Assembly: GCF_028869115.1 (NCBI RefSeq)
Contig: NZ_CP079800.1
Coordinates: forward strand, 2,579,501-2,643,500
Length of the DNA stretch: 64,000 nucleotides
Origin: Pseudemcibacter aquimaris
GTDB taxonomy: Bacteria > Pseudomonadota > Alphaproteobacteria > Sphingomonadales > Emcibacteraceae
Reading direction: 5' to 3'
The position numbers were made by a program, and so were the translations under genes. This document shows positions 56,721 to 64,000 of this stretch, piece after piece. Below the pieces are notes generated by a model, which did not search any database, was not told where the DNA came from, and worked only from the letters and a program-made list of their open reading frames with translations. Every line of letters starts with the position of its first letter. The first letter of the stretch is position 1.

Positions 56721-56797
56721 GGTCCCGTAGCTCAGGTGGATAGAGCGACAGATTCCTAATCTGTAGGCCACTGGTTCGAATCCAGTCGGGATCACCA
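56721..56797 (+). tRNA. tRNA-Arg (anticodon CCT)
   Basis: Acceptor GGTCCCG pairs with CGGGATC (one G-T pair), and the D arm is GCTC..GAGC. The anticodon stem ACAGA/TCTGT encloses TTCCTAA with anticodon CCT. The T arm CTGG TTCGAAT CCAG is followed by an encoded CCA. It lies 46 bases after ggt. Confidence 0.97.
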
Positions 56798-56814: not shown

Positions 56815-57240
56815 ATGTCTAAAAAAGATGGTAGCTGTTTATGTGGGAAAGTTACTTTTACGACTACCGCAAGCAAAGAACATTTCGGCGCATGCCACTG
56901 CGCCATGTGCAGAAAATGGAGTGGCGCCCCCTTTATGGAAATTGAATGTGGGTCTGATATTGAATTTTCCGGAACAGAATACGTTTCTATTTTCAAATCA
57001 TCCGAATGGGCAGAGCGGGCATTCTGCAAAAATTGCGGAAGCCATCTTTATTATAAACTCTTACCAACCGGCAGCCATTATGTCTCACTTGGTTTATTTG
57101 ATGGTGATATTTCACCCGAATTTAGCACACAGGTTTTTATCGATAAAAAACCCGATTATTATAATTTCAAAGAAGAAACAGCCACAATGACAGAAGCCGA
57201 AATATTAGAAATGATGAATTCGGACACTGAAAACAATTAA
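56815..57240 (+). CDS. GFA family zinc protein
   Basis: A 141-residue protein of the glutathione-dependent formaldehyde-activating (Gfa/CENP-V) family with the cysteine pattern GSCLCGKVTF, CHCAMCRKWSGAPF and FCKNCGSHLYY, giving the two zinc sites. The family name comes from one formaldehyde-linked member; most act in unknown ways, often on glutathione adducts. It starts 17 bases after tRNA-Arg, with an AGAGGAAA ribosome site, and is followed by a PAS-like gene. Confidence 0.93.
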   Translation: MSKKDGSCLCGKVTFTTTASKEHFGACHCAMCRKWSGAPFMEIECGSDIEFSGTEYVSIFKSSEWAERAFCKNCGSHLYYKLLPTGSHYVSLGLFDGDISPEFSTQVFIDKKPDYYNFKEETATMTEAEILEMMNSDTENN

Positions 57241-57294
57241 ATTCTATGATTTCCCCTCATTGACTAAAAACATACATTAGAATAAATTTCAGAA

Positions 57295-57834
57295 ATGGAT
57301 AAAGAAAGAAAAACGGGAAATTCACCAGTAGATCAAAGAATTGTTAAGGTTAATGGGAAAAAATATACAAGTTATTATTTTCCATTAAACCAAGCGCCAC
57401 CTGATGAAGCGGGTGTACTTGTTGATTTTTATCATTTATGGCGCAATAGCAATCTCGAGAAAGATATCCCATCACGAAAAGATCTTCCGTTTGAAAAACT
57501 TACCGGATGGCATTCATACATTCGTATTGTTGATATGGAAAACAGCACACCAAAAGAAGACAAAATTATTGTATCCGGCGAACGTTTCAATGAATATTTT
57601 GGTAAGCAGACCATGCGTACAGAAATTAACAATCGAGAGGAAACCGACGCCGCTGTTTTAGAAGAATACCAAGAGTTTCTAAATCATATTCATAATGGTC
57701 AATATGCTTTCGTGATTGGTCATGCGCCCAATATTGACAGTAGATTACACCGCGTTATATGGCTTGATCTGCCATTATCAAATGACGGGACAAACGTCAG
57801 CCATTTATTATCCGTCCTCGTACCGCTGAAATAA
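57295..57834 (+). CDS. PAS-like sensor protein (PAS_5 type)
   Basis: A 179-residue protein with LVDFYHLWRNSNLEKDIPSRKDLPFEKLTGWHSYIRIVDMEN, the layout of the PAS_5-type domain common in alphaproteobacteria, followed by a typical PAS beta-sheet part (KIIVSGERFNEYFGKQTM and VIWLDLPLSNDG). No effector domain, so it presumably binds another protein. It lies next to, and is convergent with, the response-regulator gene of the chemotaxis-like operon. Function unknown. Confidence 0.72.
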   Translation: MDKERKTGNSPVDQRIVKVNGKKYTSYYFPLNQAPPDEAGVLVDFYHLWRNSNLEKDIPSRKDLPFEKLTGWHSYIRIVDMENSTPKEDKIIVSGERFNEYFGKQTMRTEINNREETDAAVLEEYQEFLNHIHNGQYAFVIGHAPNIDSRLHRVIWLDLPLSNDGTNVSHLLSVLVPLK

Positions 57835-57846
57835 TTATCGGATTTA

Positions 57847-58233
57847 CTAAACGCTTTTTTCCATCAAATCCATCTCAACATACTTGGATGACTTTTCCTT
57901 CAATGCAGTAAGATTGACCGGTTTTGACATATAATCATTAGCACCAGCCCCCCTTGCCTTAATGATGGCTTCTTCGCTTACATCTGCGCTGACCATAATG
58001 ATCGGCAAATCTTTTTCTGAATATGACTTTCTGATTTCCTGAACCGCTTCAATGCCATTCATGTTCGGCAAATTCACATCCATATAAACCAAATCATACT
58101 TTTGGGCCTCTATCATTTCCAGCCCCTGTTCGGCAGTTTCAGCGATATCAATCTCATAGCCCCAAATTTGTTCAACCATAAGGGCCAGTAACCTCGCGTT
58201 CATTTCCACATCTTCAACATATAATATTTTCAC
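57847..58233 (-). CDS. Single-domain response regulator
   Basis: A 128-residue receiver domain. ILYVEDVEMNARLL carries the acidic pair, MDVNLPNMNG the phospho-acceptor Asp52, SADVS the Thr/Ser switch position and SKPVN the invariant Lys. There is no output domain. The N-terminal EDVEMNARLL pattern is typical of receivers paired with hybrid-like kinases. It starts 3 bases after the upstream histidine kinase stop, which is probably its partner. Confidence 0.92.
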   Translation of the reverse strand: MKILYVEDVEMNARLLALMVEQIWGYEIDIAETAEQGLEMIEAQKYDLVYMDVNLPNMNGIEAVQEIRKSYSEKDLPIIMVSADVSEEAIIKARGAGANDYMSKPVNLTALKEKSSKYVEMDLMEKSV

Positions 58234-58236
58234 AGG

Positions 58237-59466
58237 TTATTCCTTATTTGCTATTGGTAAGGTTAATAAAATTTCCGTTCCCGAATTTCCATCTGAAATG
58301 ATGTCAACTTCACCCTTTGCATGACGCAATAATTCTTTCACAATTGAAAGTCCTAGCCCATTACCCAAGTAAACACTGTTTGCAATTCTTCCACGTTTGA
58401 AACGTTCAAAGATAACTTGTTGTTCTTCGGGCAAAATACCAATGCCGCTATCTTTGATACTTAATACAAAATTTTCATCCGATACTGAATGTTCATTAAT
58501 GAAAATCGATCCTTTTTGCACATTAAACTTCACGGCATTTGAAATCACACTATCAATTATATTTTTCAAATTATTCTTTGAAATTTTAACATGTGGGTCA
58601 TCTAATACGTTAATATTCACATCCAGATTTTTTTCATATATCTGTTCCTGATGCTTATCAATAACGCCATCGATCACAGGCATTAAATCTGTTGACCCTT
58701 CTTGATATTTACTGTTTTTTTCAAAATTCAATAACGCATCAATACTGTTCAATAACTGTTCACCACCGTACAGAATTTCATCAATATATTCTTCATTTTG
58801 CTTATCATCATTTCTTACTTTTAATAACTGGGCAAAACCAATCACCGCATTGAGAGGTGTTCTTAATTCATGACTGACATTTGATAAAATCTGATCCTTG
58901 GCAATATTTTCCATTTCTTTAAGTCGGGCAATTTCTTTTTGTTCTGTAATATCTGTACGAATGGCTATATATCCTTCAAATTTACCGGATTTGGAAAATC
59001 TTTTTTGGATAGTCGAATAAACCCAATAATAACTACCGTCTTTACGTTTATTTTTAAATTCACCACTCCATATTTCTTGCGAAAACAATGTACGATAAAC
59101 ATTGGCATAATATTCGGTTTCATGCTCGCCAGATTTTAATAAAGAATGGTCATTACCAAGTAATTCTTCTCTGCTGTATCCTGAAATTTCGCAGAAATTA
59201 TCATTCGCATAAATGATCTTACCAAACTGGTCAGTCGCACTTACGATCGCATGGTTATTTAATGCTGCTTGTGCTTGCTCATTCAGGTTTTCAATAAAAC
59301 TTAATTGTAATTTTCTTTGTTCTGCATCGATTATGTATCCGACAGCCTGAACAATTGGTGCCAACTCATTCACTATTTTAGTATAGCTACCAGGACGGTT
59401 TGCAAGACCAATCATCCCAACAATTCGGTCACCGACATTAAACGGCACACCTATCATTTTTATCAA
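58237..59466 (-). CDS. PAS histidine kinase with truncated N-terminal GAF domain
   Basis: A 409-residue kinase. HisKA ([25 protein letters not shown]) and HATPase boxes (NAVKFNVQKGSI region, IKDSGIGI, YLGNGLGLSIVKEL) follow a PAS domain at about 75-185 (VSATDQFGKIIYANDNFCEISGYSREELLG ... EGYIAIRTDITEQKEI). The first 50 residues, MIGVPFNVGDRIVGMIGLANRPGSY, are only the C-terminal half of a GAF domain. No continuation exists upstream in this frame, which meets a stop just before a TTG at 59466; the ATG at 59457 is the alternative start. It begins only 26 bases after the cheA-like stop. The truncated GAF suggests a deletion or frameshift at the 5' end. Confidence 0.82.
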   Translation of the reverse strand: MIKMIGVPFNVGDRIVGMIGLANRPGSYTKIVNELAPIVQAVGYIIDAEQRKLQLSFIENLNEQAQAALNNHAIVSATDQFGKIIYANDNFCEISGYSREELLGNDHSLLKSGEHETEYYANVYRTLFSQEIWSGEFKNKRKDGSYYWVYSTIQKRFSKSGKFEGYIAIRTDITEQKEIARLKEMENIAKDQILSNVSHELRTPLNAVIGFAQLLKVRNDDKQNEEYIDEILYGGEQLLNSIDALLNFEKNSKYQEGSTDLMPVIDGVIDKHQEQIYEKNLDVNINVLDDPHVKISKNNLKNIIDSVISNAVKFNVQKGSIFINEHSVSDENFVLSIKDSGIGILPEEQQVIFERFKRGRIANSVYLGNGLGLSIVKELLRHAKGEVDIISDGNSGTEILLTLPIANKE

Positions 59467-59491
59467 TCTTTAATTCCATTTTTGCCTCGCA

Positions 59492-61789
59492 CTAAAATAA
59501 TTCAATACCGTCGTCATCATCGTCATCGTCCTGACTGGTGGCCGCTACTTCACTGACATCTGATTTTTTTTCTTCAGTTTCCGATGAATGTCCATAGCTA
59601 TCATCTAGGCCATCAAGAAATCTTTCTTTTACTTCGACAAGTGGGAAACTTTCTAAAATCTGTTTGATCCAATTTTGAACCAACTCTTTATGCAGGGCTT
59701 CATCATCTAATTCGCTCATCACTGCATTATGCTCAAGATCGTTAAGGAAATCATCAAGTGAACCAAGCGTCACTTTGATGGTTTCAAGATATTGGGTGGC
59801 ACGGTCTTGGAATTGGAAACCAGTAATCAAGCCAGAAATATCCTGCGCGATTTTTTCCGACATGTGTGATGATTCCTCAAGGCGAAGACTGAAATCATTG
59901 TTATATTCAATCATTTCTTCCATCATGCTATCGATATTATCTTTAGCAGTAATATTTTGGGACATGTCGATATTTGCGATCTTTTTCAAGGATTCAAAAC
60001 TTTCTTTTATCCCCGAAGAAACAGACCCCATTTTCGATTGAATTTCACCCGCAAGCCCGTTAATCAATTGGGACAAATCCTTCATTTCATCCGCAACAAC
60101 AGAAAAACCCTTACCCGCATCGCCGGCACGCGCAGATTCAATTTTAGCATTTAACGCCAGTAAATTTGTCTTGCTATTAATGTCTTCAATTTTAAAAAGG
60201 AGCGCTTCCGTTTCTTCAACATTGCCCATGACTTTTTCCAGATCGTAAACCATCTGGATACTTTCTTTTGAAAGGGTCACAATTTTGGAAATACCACTAC
60301 CCACACCGCGACCAGACACATTTGTGACTTCGGCTGCTGTTGAAAAACCCGGATGAAAAATCAAATTATCAATATCTTCGTCGGCCAAGTTATCTGATTC
60401 AATCAGGTTCTTTTCCAGTGCTTTCTTTAAGACCACATCTCTTTTGATACCTTGACCATCATCGGATACTTCAATGACAATTCTGCCGCCACGATGTTCC
60501 GCATTAAGCCAGATCGTACCTTCTGCGCTTTTCCCGTTTTTCTCTCTTTCATCGGGCATTTCGATGCCATGATCCAAAGAATTTCTTATCATGTGTGTCA
60601 GCGGGTCGGCGATTTCTTCAATCACTGTTTTATCGACTTCAGTTGCCTCACCGGTTGTAACGAGCTTTACTTTCTTCTTAAGCTGCCCACTTAAATCACG
60701 CACCAGGCGCGGCATTCTGGAAAATACAGACTTTACCGGCTGCATGCGAATGGCCATCACATTTTCCTGAAGCTCTCGTGCATGTGCTGCGAGTTCCTCC
60801 ATGCCGGAAACAATGCGTAGATTTTGCGAAGTATCCAAATCTTCAAGGTCTTGCGTTAACATGGCCTGGGTAATCACCAACTCACCAACCATATTGACGA
60901 GCTTATCAATACGTTCAAGATCAACACGAATAGAGGTCGTTGCAGCCGTCGCTTTCTTCTTTGTCACAGGCGTTTTAACGGTGGCATCTTTGCCATTCGC
61001 TTTGGATGGTTTTTCTGTTGATACTTCTTTGGCCTCTGTTTTTTCCGGCTCTTTCACCGCCGCGTCTTCAACAACAGATATCTCAAGCTTACAATCATCT
61101 TCTACGAATTCAAAAACCTCTTCAACTTCAGAACGTGGTTCTTCAGTCGTTAATTTAAAATTCCAGGAAAAGTATGAATCTTCCGGTTCGATTGAATGTA
61201 AATCCGGAAGTTTTGATGTATCAATTTCAACTTCAACATCACCAAGTGTTTTGAGTTCTCTAATCAGAAGGATCGGTTCATTGGCATGACGAAACACTTC
61301 CGCATTGGGTATAAAGGAAATAGAATATGTTTGTTTTTCCGATTGTTGCTCTTCCGGCGCCTCTTCTTTCTTTTCCTTTGGTGCCGTTGAACCATCCGAA
61401 TTTAAATATGCTTCAAGTTCCTGTTTTGCTTCAATTCCATATTCCGGGCCAAGTTCATCTTCATTTTGTGCTGCTTCAATTAAATCGCTAAGTACATCAC
61501 TTGATTTAAACAATGTATTGGTGACATCTTCGTTATTATCAATTTCACCATTGCGCATGCGATCAAGCAATGCTTCGAATGTATGTGAAAATGATATCAA
61601 ATCTGTAAATTGAAAAGTTCCCGCACCGGCCTTAATTGAATGAACCGCCCTAAAGATTGCATTCAACGTTTCATCGTCATCATCACCAGATTGCAAATCT
61701 GATAAATGTTGTTCCATATCTGCTGTCAGTTCATCACATTCCGTAAAGAAAACAGTTTTAAACTGAGCAAACGGATCATCACCTGTCAT
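59492..61789 (-). CDS. CheA N-terminal region fused to the tail of a chemoreceptor-like protein
   Basis: A 765-residue chimera. Residues 1-110 are the HPt (P1) domain with phospho-acceptor His50 ([12 protein letters not shown]). A linker and P2-like region (154-245) follow, then P3 dimerisation ([25 protein letters not shown]) and P4 ATPase N-terminal parts ([41 protein letters not shown]). At residue 497 (base 60299) the CheA sequence, normally GRGVGMDVV, turns into SGISKIVTL... and continues as an MCP-type signalling domain. This has the hairpin tip [32 protein letters not shown] and a tail ending DDDDGIELF. The rest of P4 and the CheW-like P5 are missing, so kinase activity is unlikely. 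Confidence 0.85.
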
Positions 61790-61820
61790 GTATTTCCCTG
61801 TTCTGTTTTTTTATTCTGAT

Positions 61821-62186
61821 TTAAGGACACACTTTAGCTACTACTTTTATCAACTTCTCCGGTACAAATGGTTTTACAATCCAGCCTGTTGCTCCGGCTG
61901 AACGACCCTCTTGTTTTAGGTCATCGCCAGATTCAGTTGTCAGGATTAAAATCGGCATGGAACGATATTTATCGTCCACGCGAACATTTTTGATTAAATC
62001 AATGCCGTTCATTCCCGGCATATTAATATCTGTAATAATAAGATCGATTTCGTTGGATTTTAATTTGGTTAACCCATCGTTCCCATCAACGGCCAACGTG
62101 ACATCATACCCTGCACCTTGCAGTGTAAAATTGATCATATCTCTCATGGTTTTTGAATCATCAACAGCCAGAATTTTTTTAGCCAT
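61821..62186 (-). CDS. cheY: CheY-type response regulator
   Basis: A 121-residue receiver: ILAVDDSKTMRDMINFTLQGAGYDV with the acidic pair, LIITDINMPGMNG with phospho-acceptor Asp53, ILTTESG with the switch Thr, and GWIVKPFVPEKL with the invariant Lys. The DDSKTMR start is that of chemotaxis CheY proteins. It lies between the STAS gene (1 base) and the cheA-like gene (31 bases), matching the usual STAS-CheY-CheA order. Confidence 0.93.
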   Translation of the reverse strand: MAKKILAVDDSKTMRDMINFTLQGAGYDVTLAVDGNDGLTKLKSNEIDLIITDINMPGMNGIDLIKNVRVDDKYRSMPILILTTESGDDLKQEGRSAGATGWIVKPFVPEKLIKVVAKVCP

Positions 62187-62187
62187 T

Positions 62188-62493
62188 TTAAGAACTCCAA
62201 TCTTTATATTCTTTTTCCAATCCCAAATCGGTTACCGCACTAATGAATGCATCCGATGCATTCGTGACAATTAATTTGGAATTATTTTTTTTAAGTTCAT
62301 TATCGGTAGCCACAATCAACTGGATGCATGGGGTCAGAATTCTTTCAACTTCTGAGCCATCTATCGTAATTTCACTCTTGTCATTCAATTGGGATTCCAG
62401 CTGCACTTTGAAATCATTTGCTGCGACAAGATCCATAACTGGAGAAAGTTTAATTGTGTCAGTCATAAAGGTAAATTTCCTCCCTGAATTCAC
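62188..62493 (-). CDS. STAS-domain protein of the chemotaxis operon
   Basis: A 101-residue STAS domain: TIKLSPVMDLVAANDFKVQLESQLNDKSEITIDGSEVERILTPCIQLIVATDNELKKNNSKLIVTNASDAFISAVTDLGLEKEY. The usual phosphorylatable Ser region reads ILTPCIQ. Similar proteins head chemotaxis operons in alphaproteobacteria; their role there is unclear. It is the first gene of the minus-strand operon, 43 bases downstream of a consensus CtrA box pointing at it. Confidence 0.88.
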   Translation of the reverse strand: MNSGRKFTFMTDTIKLSPVMDLVAANDFKVQLESQLNDKSEITIDGSEVERILTPCIQLIVATDNELKKNNSKLIVTNASDAFISAVTDLGLEKEYKDWSS

Positions 62494-62534
62494 TTTTACC
62501 GATTAAATTTCGCAATAGTATTTGCCAATTTAGT

Positions 62535-62550
62535 TAACAAGCAATTAAAA
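62535..62550 (-). promoter_or_regulatory. CtrA-box consensus before the STAS/cheY/cheA operon
   Basis: On the minus strand TTAATTGCTTGTTAAC (TTAA-N7-TTAAC), the full CtrA consensus, lies 43 bases before the STAS start. CtrA governs motility and chemotaxis genes in many alphaproteobacteria. Confidence 0.6.
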
Positions 62551-62649
62551 TATTAAATATATTAAGTAAAATTTCTGTTACAATTTTATATATGCTTGGC
62601 GACAACGCGCCTTACCCCCAAAAATATTGCTCACTGAATATAAACTTTT

Positions 62650-62701
62650 GAATCAAAATGAATTTTTATATTGATTCGCGCGAATCATCATCATATGATT
62701 C
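62650..62701. promoter_or_regulatory. Cluster of four GANTC (CcrM) sites
   Basis: GAATC at 62650, GATTC at 62673, GAATC at 62682 and GATTC at 62697 fall within 52 bases; the middle two form the 14-base palindrome GATTCGCGCGAATC. GANTC is the CcrM methylation site of alphaproteobacteria, and promoter GANTC can link expression to replication. Confidence 0.45.
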
Positions 62702-62713
62702 GTAATGTTATGC

Positions 62714-62729
62714 TTAACAAAAGATTAAC
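62714..62729 (+). promoter_or_regulatory. CtrA-box consensus before the DUF2786-like gene
   Basis: TTAACAAAAGATTAAC matches TTAA-N7-TTAAC exactly, 48 bases before the ATG at 62777. Together with the minus-strand copy at 62535, each divergent gene has its own box. Confidence 0.6.
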
Positions 62730-62776
62730 GCGGTACAATTTTACAAACTGTTTTAATGTCTTTCCCGGAGGAAATA

Positions 62777-63259
62777 ATGCCTGAAACAGACCTTTTTAGT
62801 AACGAACAAGAACTACAAAAATTATGTCGTATACTAGAGCTTTCAAATTCAACAAATGACGCCGAATGTTTAGTGGCAACTCGTAAAGCTCAACAAATTC
62901 TTTCTAAGTATGGTTTAACATATCACGCGTTTATTAGCAAATTACAATATAAATCAACCCATTCTACTAAACGAAAAATCAAAGAACTACAGTCAAAAAT
63001 AAAAGAACAAAATGCAAAAATCGCAAGACTGGAAAAACGACAATCATCGGATCTAAATACTGCAAATTCGACCCCAAGGTTCCTTGGTCCCATTCAAGGA
63101 TTAAAAAAGTATTTGATGGGTAATTTTTCACTTAAAACCCATGAACGCGCCTTACTAGAAGGGATTAAGGAAATTGAACCAAAATCAAAAGAAGCCTATA
63201 TGATTTTAATATGCGCCAGAAGACATGGCGTCGAATATAAATTGGCGAACAATTTATAA
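62777..63259 (+). CDS. DUF2786-like protein with coiled coil
   Basis: A 160-residue protein starting MPETDLFSNEQELQKLCRILELSNSTNDAECLVATRKAQQILSKYGLTYHAFISKL, similar to the DUF2786 unit (short helical repeat with KAQxLLxKYGL). A Lys/Glu-rich coiled coil (KRKIKELQSKIKEQNAKIARLEKR) and a C-terminal helical part follow. The ATG at 62777 is chosen because GGAGG lies 5 bases upstream. Function unknown. The upstream CtrA box suggests cell-cycle control. Confidence 0.72.
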   Translation: MPETDLFSNEQELQKLCRILELSNSTNDAECLVATRKAQQILSKYGLTYHAFISKLQYKSTHSTKRKIKELQSKIKEQNAKIARLEKRQSSDLNTANSTPRFLGPIQGLKKYLMGNFSLKTHERALLEGIKEIEPKSKEAYMILICARRHGVEYKLANNL

Positions 63260-63266
63260 ATATCAT

Positions 63267-64000
63267 TCATTCTTCTTCGTATTTAACGACGACTTTATTT
63301 CTCCCGTTTTCCTTTGCTTCATATAAACATTTATCAGCATATGATAATAATTCATCTGCATCTTCACTATGCCCTACATAAACGCCAATACTGATGGTGG
63401 GGTTAATGATTTCATTATCAATTTCCATGGTAACATCGTTAACAGCTTGTCTAATATGGTCAAATTTTTCTTCTACTTTTTCAACATCCATATCTGTTGC
63501 AAGAATTGCAAATTCCTCACCACCCGTCCTAGCAAGCACATCACTTTTTCGGATATTTTCTGATAGTACATTACCTATCAAAATAAGAACCTGATCCCCC
63601 ACATCATGGCCGAATGTATCATTAATTTTTTTGAAGTGATCCACATCAAGCATCGCTGCAACAGGAGGCACTTTCCGTCTATCTAACCCGGAAAGGAGCG
63701 GTTCTGTTACCTCGAAAAATGACCTGCGGTTTCTTAATCCTGTCAGAAAATCATAACTCGCCAGATTTTCAAGCTGTTCAATATGTTCAAGATAATCAAG
63801 ATTTTGTGAAACCCGGCAATAGAACTCTTCTGCATCAAAAGGTTTTGAAATAAAGTCATTGGCACCAATTTTAATGAATTGCGCCGACAACCCTTGTTGT
63901 TCTGAGCTGGAAACCGCAATAATCGCAAGCTTGCTTTTTGGATGTTCTTCACGGATGTTTTTCGTTAATTCAAACCCATCCATTTTCGGCATATTGTAAT
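63267..64000 (-). CDS. Response regulator with GGDEF domain (runs off window)
   Basis: A diguanylate cyclase whose N-terminus lies beyond the right edge. The visible part begins within a receiver domain (YNMPKMDGFELTKNIREEHPKSKLAIIAVSSSEQ, invariant Lys in FISKPFD) and continues into GGDEF: DFLTGLRNRRSF, DVDHFKKINDTFGHDVGDQVL and the active site RTGGEEFAIL. The RKSD inhibitory site lies exactly five residues before GGEEF, so the enzyme should make c-di-GMP and be feedback inhibited by it. It is convergent with the DUF2786-like gene. Confidence 0.93.
   Translation of the reverse strand, partial: YNMPKMDGFELTKNIREEHPKSKLAIIAVSSSEQQGLSAQFIKIGANDFISKPFDAEEFYCRVSQNLDYLEHIEQLENLASYDFLTGLRNRRSFFEVTEPLLSGLDRRKVPPVAAMLDVDHFKKINDTFGHDVGDQVLILIGNVLSENIRKSDVLARTGGEEFAILATDMDVEKVEEKFDHIRQAVNDVTMEIDNEIINPTISIGVYVGHSEDADELLSYADKCLYEAKENGRNKVVVKYEEE

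Follow-up and report, generated by a model that had tools for sequence, protein, structure and literature searches.

An in-frame fusion of cheA with an mcp-like gene in Pseudemcibacter aquimaris, probably the relic of a deletion in an accessory chemosensory cluster

The window analysed here is a stretch of 64,000 nucleotides from the genome of Pseudemcibacter aquimaris (NZ_CP079800.1, positions 2,579,501 to 2,643,500). On its minus strand lies an open reading frame of 765 codons (59492..61789) that starts as a CheA kinase and ends as the tail of a chemoreceptor-like protein. Codons 1-497 (60299..61789) encode the Hpt domain, the middle domain, the dimerisation domain and the ATPase up to the motif GRGVG, whose last codon ends at base 60299. 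A single Ser codon (60296..60298) forms the junction, and from 60295 the frame continues with GISK into the C-terminal part of an mcp-like gene (59492..60295), which closes with its natural acidic end, DDGIELF. The translation, Pfam and matches to homologues thus bear out the earlier note, which had read CheA up to GRGVG followed without a break by a receptor-like tail and had placed the change correctly at about base 60299.

Pfam places Hpt (P1; PF01627, E 6e-13) at residues 11-109, H-kinase_dim (P3; PF02895, E 1.7e-17) at 285-347, HATPase_c at 394-504 and MCPsignal (PF00015, E 6e-21) at 510-652. The last match covers profile positions 18-159 of 172, receptor tip included, and the Hpt domain, the dimerisation domain and the receptor-tip stretch are all intact in sequence. 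P4, however, is incomplete, as HATPase_c extends over profile positions 3-83 of 111 compared with 4-110 in the CheA of G013, a relative from the same family and another genus. The CheW-like P5 domain, located by PF01584 at residues 535-662 of the G013 protein, had no match in the fused ORF. The earlier note was therefore right about the loss of the whole CheW-binding domain and overstated that of the ATPase: judged by the profile, about the last quarter would be missing rather than the second half.

Matches to solved structures change at the same place. Residues 8-502 resemble a CheA chain (6s1k_A, E 1.1e-96), and from about residue 488 onward the matches are to receptor chains (6s18_A, 3g6b_A and others). 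In the predicted fold the joint (residues 491-507) has pLDDT below 50, and the model shows no strand beyond residue 443; with a pTM of 0.32 this is weak evidence, the input having been an alignment of the fusion with 16 CheA fronts (17 sequences) in which the tail had no relatives. A joint alignment of the fusion with CheA fronts and tails was dropped, as it placed the tails against the CheA front. Tested for foreign DNA at the joint, base composition showed no abrupt shift at 60299. The sole tRNA in the stretch L037 is a tRNA-Arg at 56721-56797.

The ORF list and Pfam, together with comparison to relatives, identify two small genes ahead of the fusion on the same strand: a CheY-type single receiver (61821..62186) and a STAS-domain protein (62188..62493), with which the cluster begins. 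Beside these, on the opposite strand, the gene at 62756-63259 gave a sub-threshold match to DUF2786 (22.4 bits, cut-off 23.9). Behind the fusion, and also on the minus strand, come a histidine kinase (58237..59466) with PAS, HisKA and HATPase_c domains by Pfam and a single receiver-domain protein (57847..58233).

The kinase is itself apparently truncated at its 5' end, inside a GAF domain. Its start aligns to residue 124 of a 552-aa kinase of G041, within the GAF domain of that protein (residues 21-170), and upstream of this start the frame stays open for only a few codons. At E 1e-60, matches were obtained in 4 of 40 relatives, P. aquimaris included, and only the G041 kinase spans the start. 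Judged by this single full-length homologue, at 34-35% identity, the gene seems to have lost its 5' part, some 120 residues of the GAF domain, in a second cut 0.8 kb from the fusion joint. Just ahead of the kinase, in a different frame, lies a 13-codon ORF, MELKIDKNDRCAV, which might be a remnant of its old start.

The origin of the two halves becomes apparent in relatives, where the cluster runs STAS-cheY-cheA-cheW-mcp-cheR-cheD-cheB-mcp-like. In G013, fusion residues 3-502 correspond to one gene (68% identity) and residues 496-765 to a second (53% identity), both on one strand of one contig; judged by sequence comparison, a match of the halves to two such genes is far beyond chance. Between them G013 encodes an 807-aa PAS-HAMP-MCP receptor, CheR, CheD and CheB, as identified by Pfam, and a CheW recognised by family search. 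G035 has the same gene order, with CheW, CheR, CheD and CheB confirmed by Pfam. The two breakpoints lie 6,622 bases apart in G013, and in the numbering of its proteins the fusion would lack roughly 197 CheA residues and, at the start of the mcp-like protein, roughly 137.

The CheA part of the fusion is thus recognisable as the CheA of this cluster. Its first 497 residues share 68% identity with the G013 protein and about 50-53% with those of L057, L067 and L093, and it stands behind STAS and cheY in the window as it does in the relatives; it differs in carrying an mcp-like tail in place of the last part of the ATPase and the P5/CheW domain. The parent of the tail is not the large receptor of the cluster, but a small MCP-like protein of 393-398 aa in G013, G035 and G047, which shares with fusion residues 499-765 the receptor tip and the acidic C-terminus and differs in possessing the N-terminal residues that the fusion has lost. 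No sensory domain was found by Pfam in the fused ORF or in the parent proteins of G013 and G035.

A scan of named genome contigs from 135 relatives yielded 80 loci whose matches were kept, and in at least 17 of these cheA, cheR, cheD, cheB and the mcp-like gene are collinear, with breakpoints 6.4-7.5 kb apart (L111 through partial matches). They include Kordiimonas laminariae (L057, identical to the G047 stretch over 13,838 bases), Kiloniella laminariae (L067, L089), Breoghania (L072) and Roseibium (L080, L093, L099, L105). G047 is labelled as belonging to the same taxonomic order as the window, which places the window in the order that contains Kordiimonas in that scheme. Among the loci listed, matches to cheA and to the tail occur together in 43 of 80, and in none of the 43 does the tail lie within 300 bases of the end of the CheA front. 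Among the loci listed, 40 have a CheA front that extends to residue 495, and in all 40 the C-terminal part of CheA comes directly after it.

Two other arrangements were seen. In 19 of the 80 loci listed (L075, L077, L083, L088 and L096 among them), mostly from Methylobacterium and Methylorubrum, the mcp-like gene has a relative that precedes a different CheA by 0.4-1.4 kb on the same strand; this CheA is mostly 32-38% identical to that of the window. In G019, a 211-aa protein (L045:11605-12240) stands behind cheB instead; it shares with the mcp-like tail a QFQDR stretch and the acidic end and has no receptor tip.

A natural fusion, working as a scaffold or dominant partner, had been one suggestion of the earlier note, which proposed to look for the same junction in relatives. 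Among the matches listed, none but the P. aquimaris gene itself spanned both halves, whether in 60 relatives (55 with a match), in 385 genomes of the class (39 with a match, its own included) or in 396 genomes of the order (72 with a match, its own included). These sets overlap, and the class and order searches were run at strict E-values, with two candidates scored in each genome; the CheA-side matches listed in them end by query residue 523. With the junction in no other species among these matches, and in none of the 43 loci, the suggestion is left unsupported. Nor did a natural CheA-MCP fusion appear in the titles and opening lines of abstracts among the papers listed; passages of PMC10703414 deal with constructed GFP and cloning fusions and with the domains of CheA1 and CheA2.

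Within the genus, the 12 genomes compared (G001-G012) yielded no intact copy of the cluster. Their best match to the fusion, at 1.7e-56, is at the level of the general CheA encoded at 335 kb in P. aquimaris (9.5e-55). Eight same-genus stretches around two genes that flank the locus gave no match to the fusion at E 1e-6. In G001 (L165) the flanking GGT and dehydrogenase-like genes are about 10 kb apart, one on the opposite strand, with no cluster match between them; in G008 (L172) the flanking transporter keeps a neighbour. The cluster is therefore missing from those stretches. The state just before the proposed deletion appears, on these comparisons, to be absent from the sampled genus, and P. 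aquimaris is the sole holder of the accessory cluster in the 12-genome sample, which implies either late loss elsewhere or gain here.

Of the genes that lie between the halves in relatives, CheD, CheW, CheB and CheR were searched for elsewhere in P. aquimaris, whose genome is a single contig of 3,369,470 bases, 100% complete. CheD had no match in this genome or in the 12 same-genus genomes, and one each in G013 and G035 (2 of 15 genomes). The CheW family is represented by three matches, all at 336.5-338.3 kb, CheB by one at 339.3 kb and CheR by one at 340.1 kb, beside a second CheA in a 1026-aa frame at about 335 kb, which matches the Hpt region too. The earlier note had proposed to look for intact cheA, cheW and MCP genes elsewhere in the genome; a CheA and CheW-type domains are present at about 335-341 kb, together with CheB and CheR. 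Since CheD is matchless and the CheW-type domains, CheB and CheR are confined to this second locus, we rejected a move of the missing piece to another site; it was lost. Together with the gene order in relatives, this strongly supports the in-frame deletion proposed in the earlier note, in which cheW and other intervening genes disappeared.

Could the loss have arisen during assembly, from a chromosome that still holds the full cluster and whose ends were joined by a chimeric read or a collapse? The uniqueness of the junction among the matches listed would fit such an error, as would two parts as free of clear erosion as intact genes. The single complete contig, the absence of CheD, and of any CheW, CheB and CheR beyond the 335-341 kb set, the preserved frame at the joint and the second truncation 0.8 kb away argue against it. 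Repeats that could mediate a collapse were also sought: only short, imperfect pairs occur in 57000-63300, a search blind to the missing DNA, and in a better test the breakpoint DNA of G013 and G035, inspected by eye, revealed no long stretch common to both breakpoints. We consider an assembly error, which the earlier note had placed beside deletion, rather unlikely.

The fused halves show no clear erosion at the sequence level, and what small differences exist point both ways. Compared with 11 outgroup sequences, the CheA part is slightly further than that of G013 from nine, by about one point of identity on average, and closer to two; the tail is closer than that of G013 in 10 of 10 comparisons, and STAS is further in 8 of 9 and equal in one. 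Otherwise invariant columns were changed in 3/130 (CheA part), 2/29 (tail), 1/49 (CheY) and 1/7 (STAS) cases in the window, against 2/129, 3/30, 4/52 and 1/7 in G013. A random point change in the fused ORF creates a stop in about 2.9% of cases; insertions and deletions ignored, the chance of zero stops under no selection is down to 5% once the sequence has changed by about 4.6%. Because neither half is clearly eroded, the loss looks recent; a young loss or a constrained chimera would fit these data, and the open frame is likewise compatible with a kept function.

What might such a function be? A chimera born of the deletion could enter receptor arrays by its receptor tip, receive phosphate on its Hpt domain in trans from the remaining CheA and pass it to the adjacent CheY, or act as a dominant partner. 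The intact Hpt, dimerisation and receptor-tip stretches speak for this, as does a rate of invariant-column changes like that of the intact G013 genes. There is also a precedent in the split CheA of Rhodobacter sphaeroides: as described in PMC6829392, CheA3 has a His domain and no kinase domain of its own, and is phosphorylated by CheA4. An active chimera would resemble it in this respect. CheA3, however, keeps P5 and has CheA4 as its partner kinase, whereas the fusion lacks P5, and the only other CheA found in its genome has an Hpt match. A phosphotransfer role on the model of CheA3 is conceivable and unsupported. Moreover, the cluster's own partners are gone, the gene behind is also cut, the junction occurs in no other gene among the matches listed, and youth accounts equally well for the missing erosion. 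Retained function of any of these kinds seems to us distinctly unlikely, and the specific route, in which a one-piece phosphotransfer protein with a receptor hairpin works in the surviving array to relay phosphate from the remaining CheA to the adjacent CheY, highly improbable; if true, an orphaned pathway would have been rewired onto the main chemotaxis system.

In conclusion, an accessory chemosensory cluster has probably lost about 6.6 kb here, in a deletion that is real and recent, leaving an in-frame fusion that is most likely inactive. As comparison with relatives shows, the missing stretch begins immediately after the GRGVG codons of cheA and extends through roughly the first third of the mcp-like gene, and the remaining ends are joined in frame; the histidine kinase that follows would have lost its 5' part in a second event, if its one full-length homologue is a guide. 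The fused protein would retain its phosphotransfer and dimerisation domains, most of the ATPase and the receptor hairpin. It would lack the last part of the ATPase as well as P5, and the CheW, receptor, CheR, CheD and CheB that belong to the cluster would be gone too. With the ATPase end and P5 gone, the product is very unlikely to be a working kinase and is most likely a relic of a decaying cluster; taxis would depend on the other set of genes, near 335-341 kb. What is seen looks like a broken remnant of the usual loss of genes rather than a novel type of signalling protein. The gene order of relatives accounts for the chimera without any new mechanism, and greater importance would follow only if the chimera were made and phosphorylated by the other CheA. 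When an accessory chemosensory cluster is lost, an in-frame chimera can thus remain that, from domain annotation alone, would pass for a new architecture.
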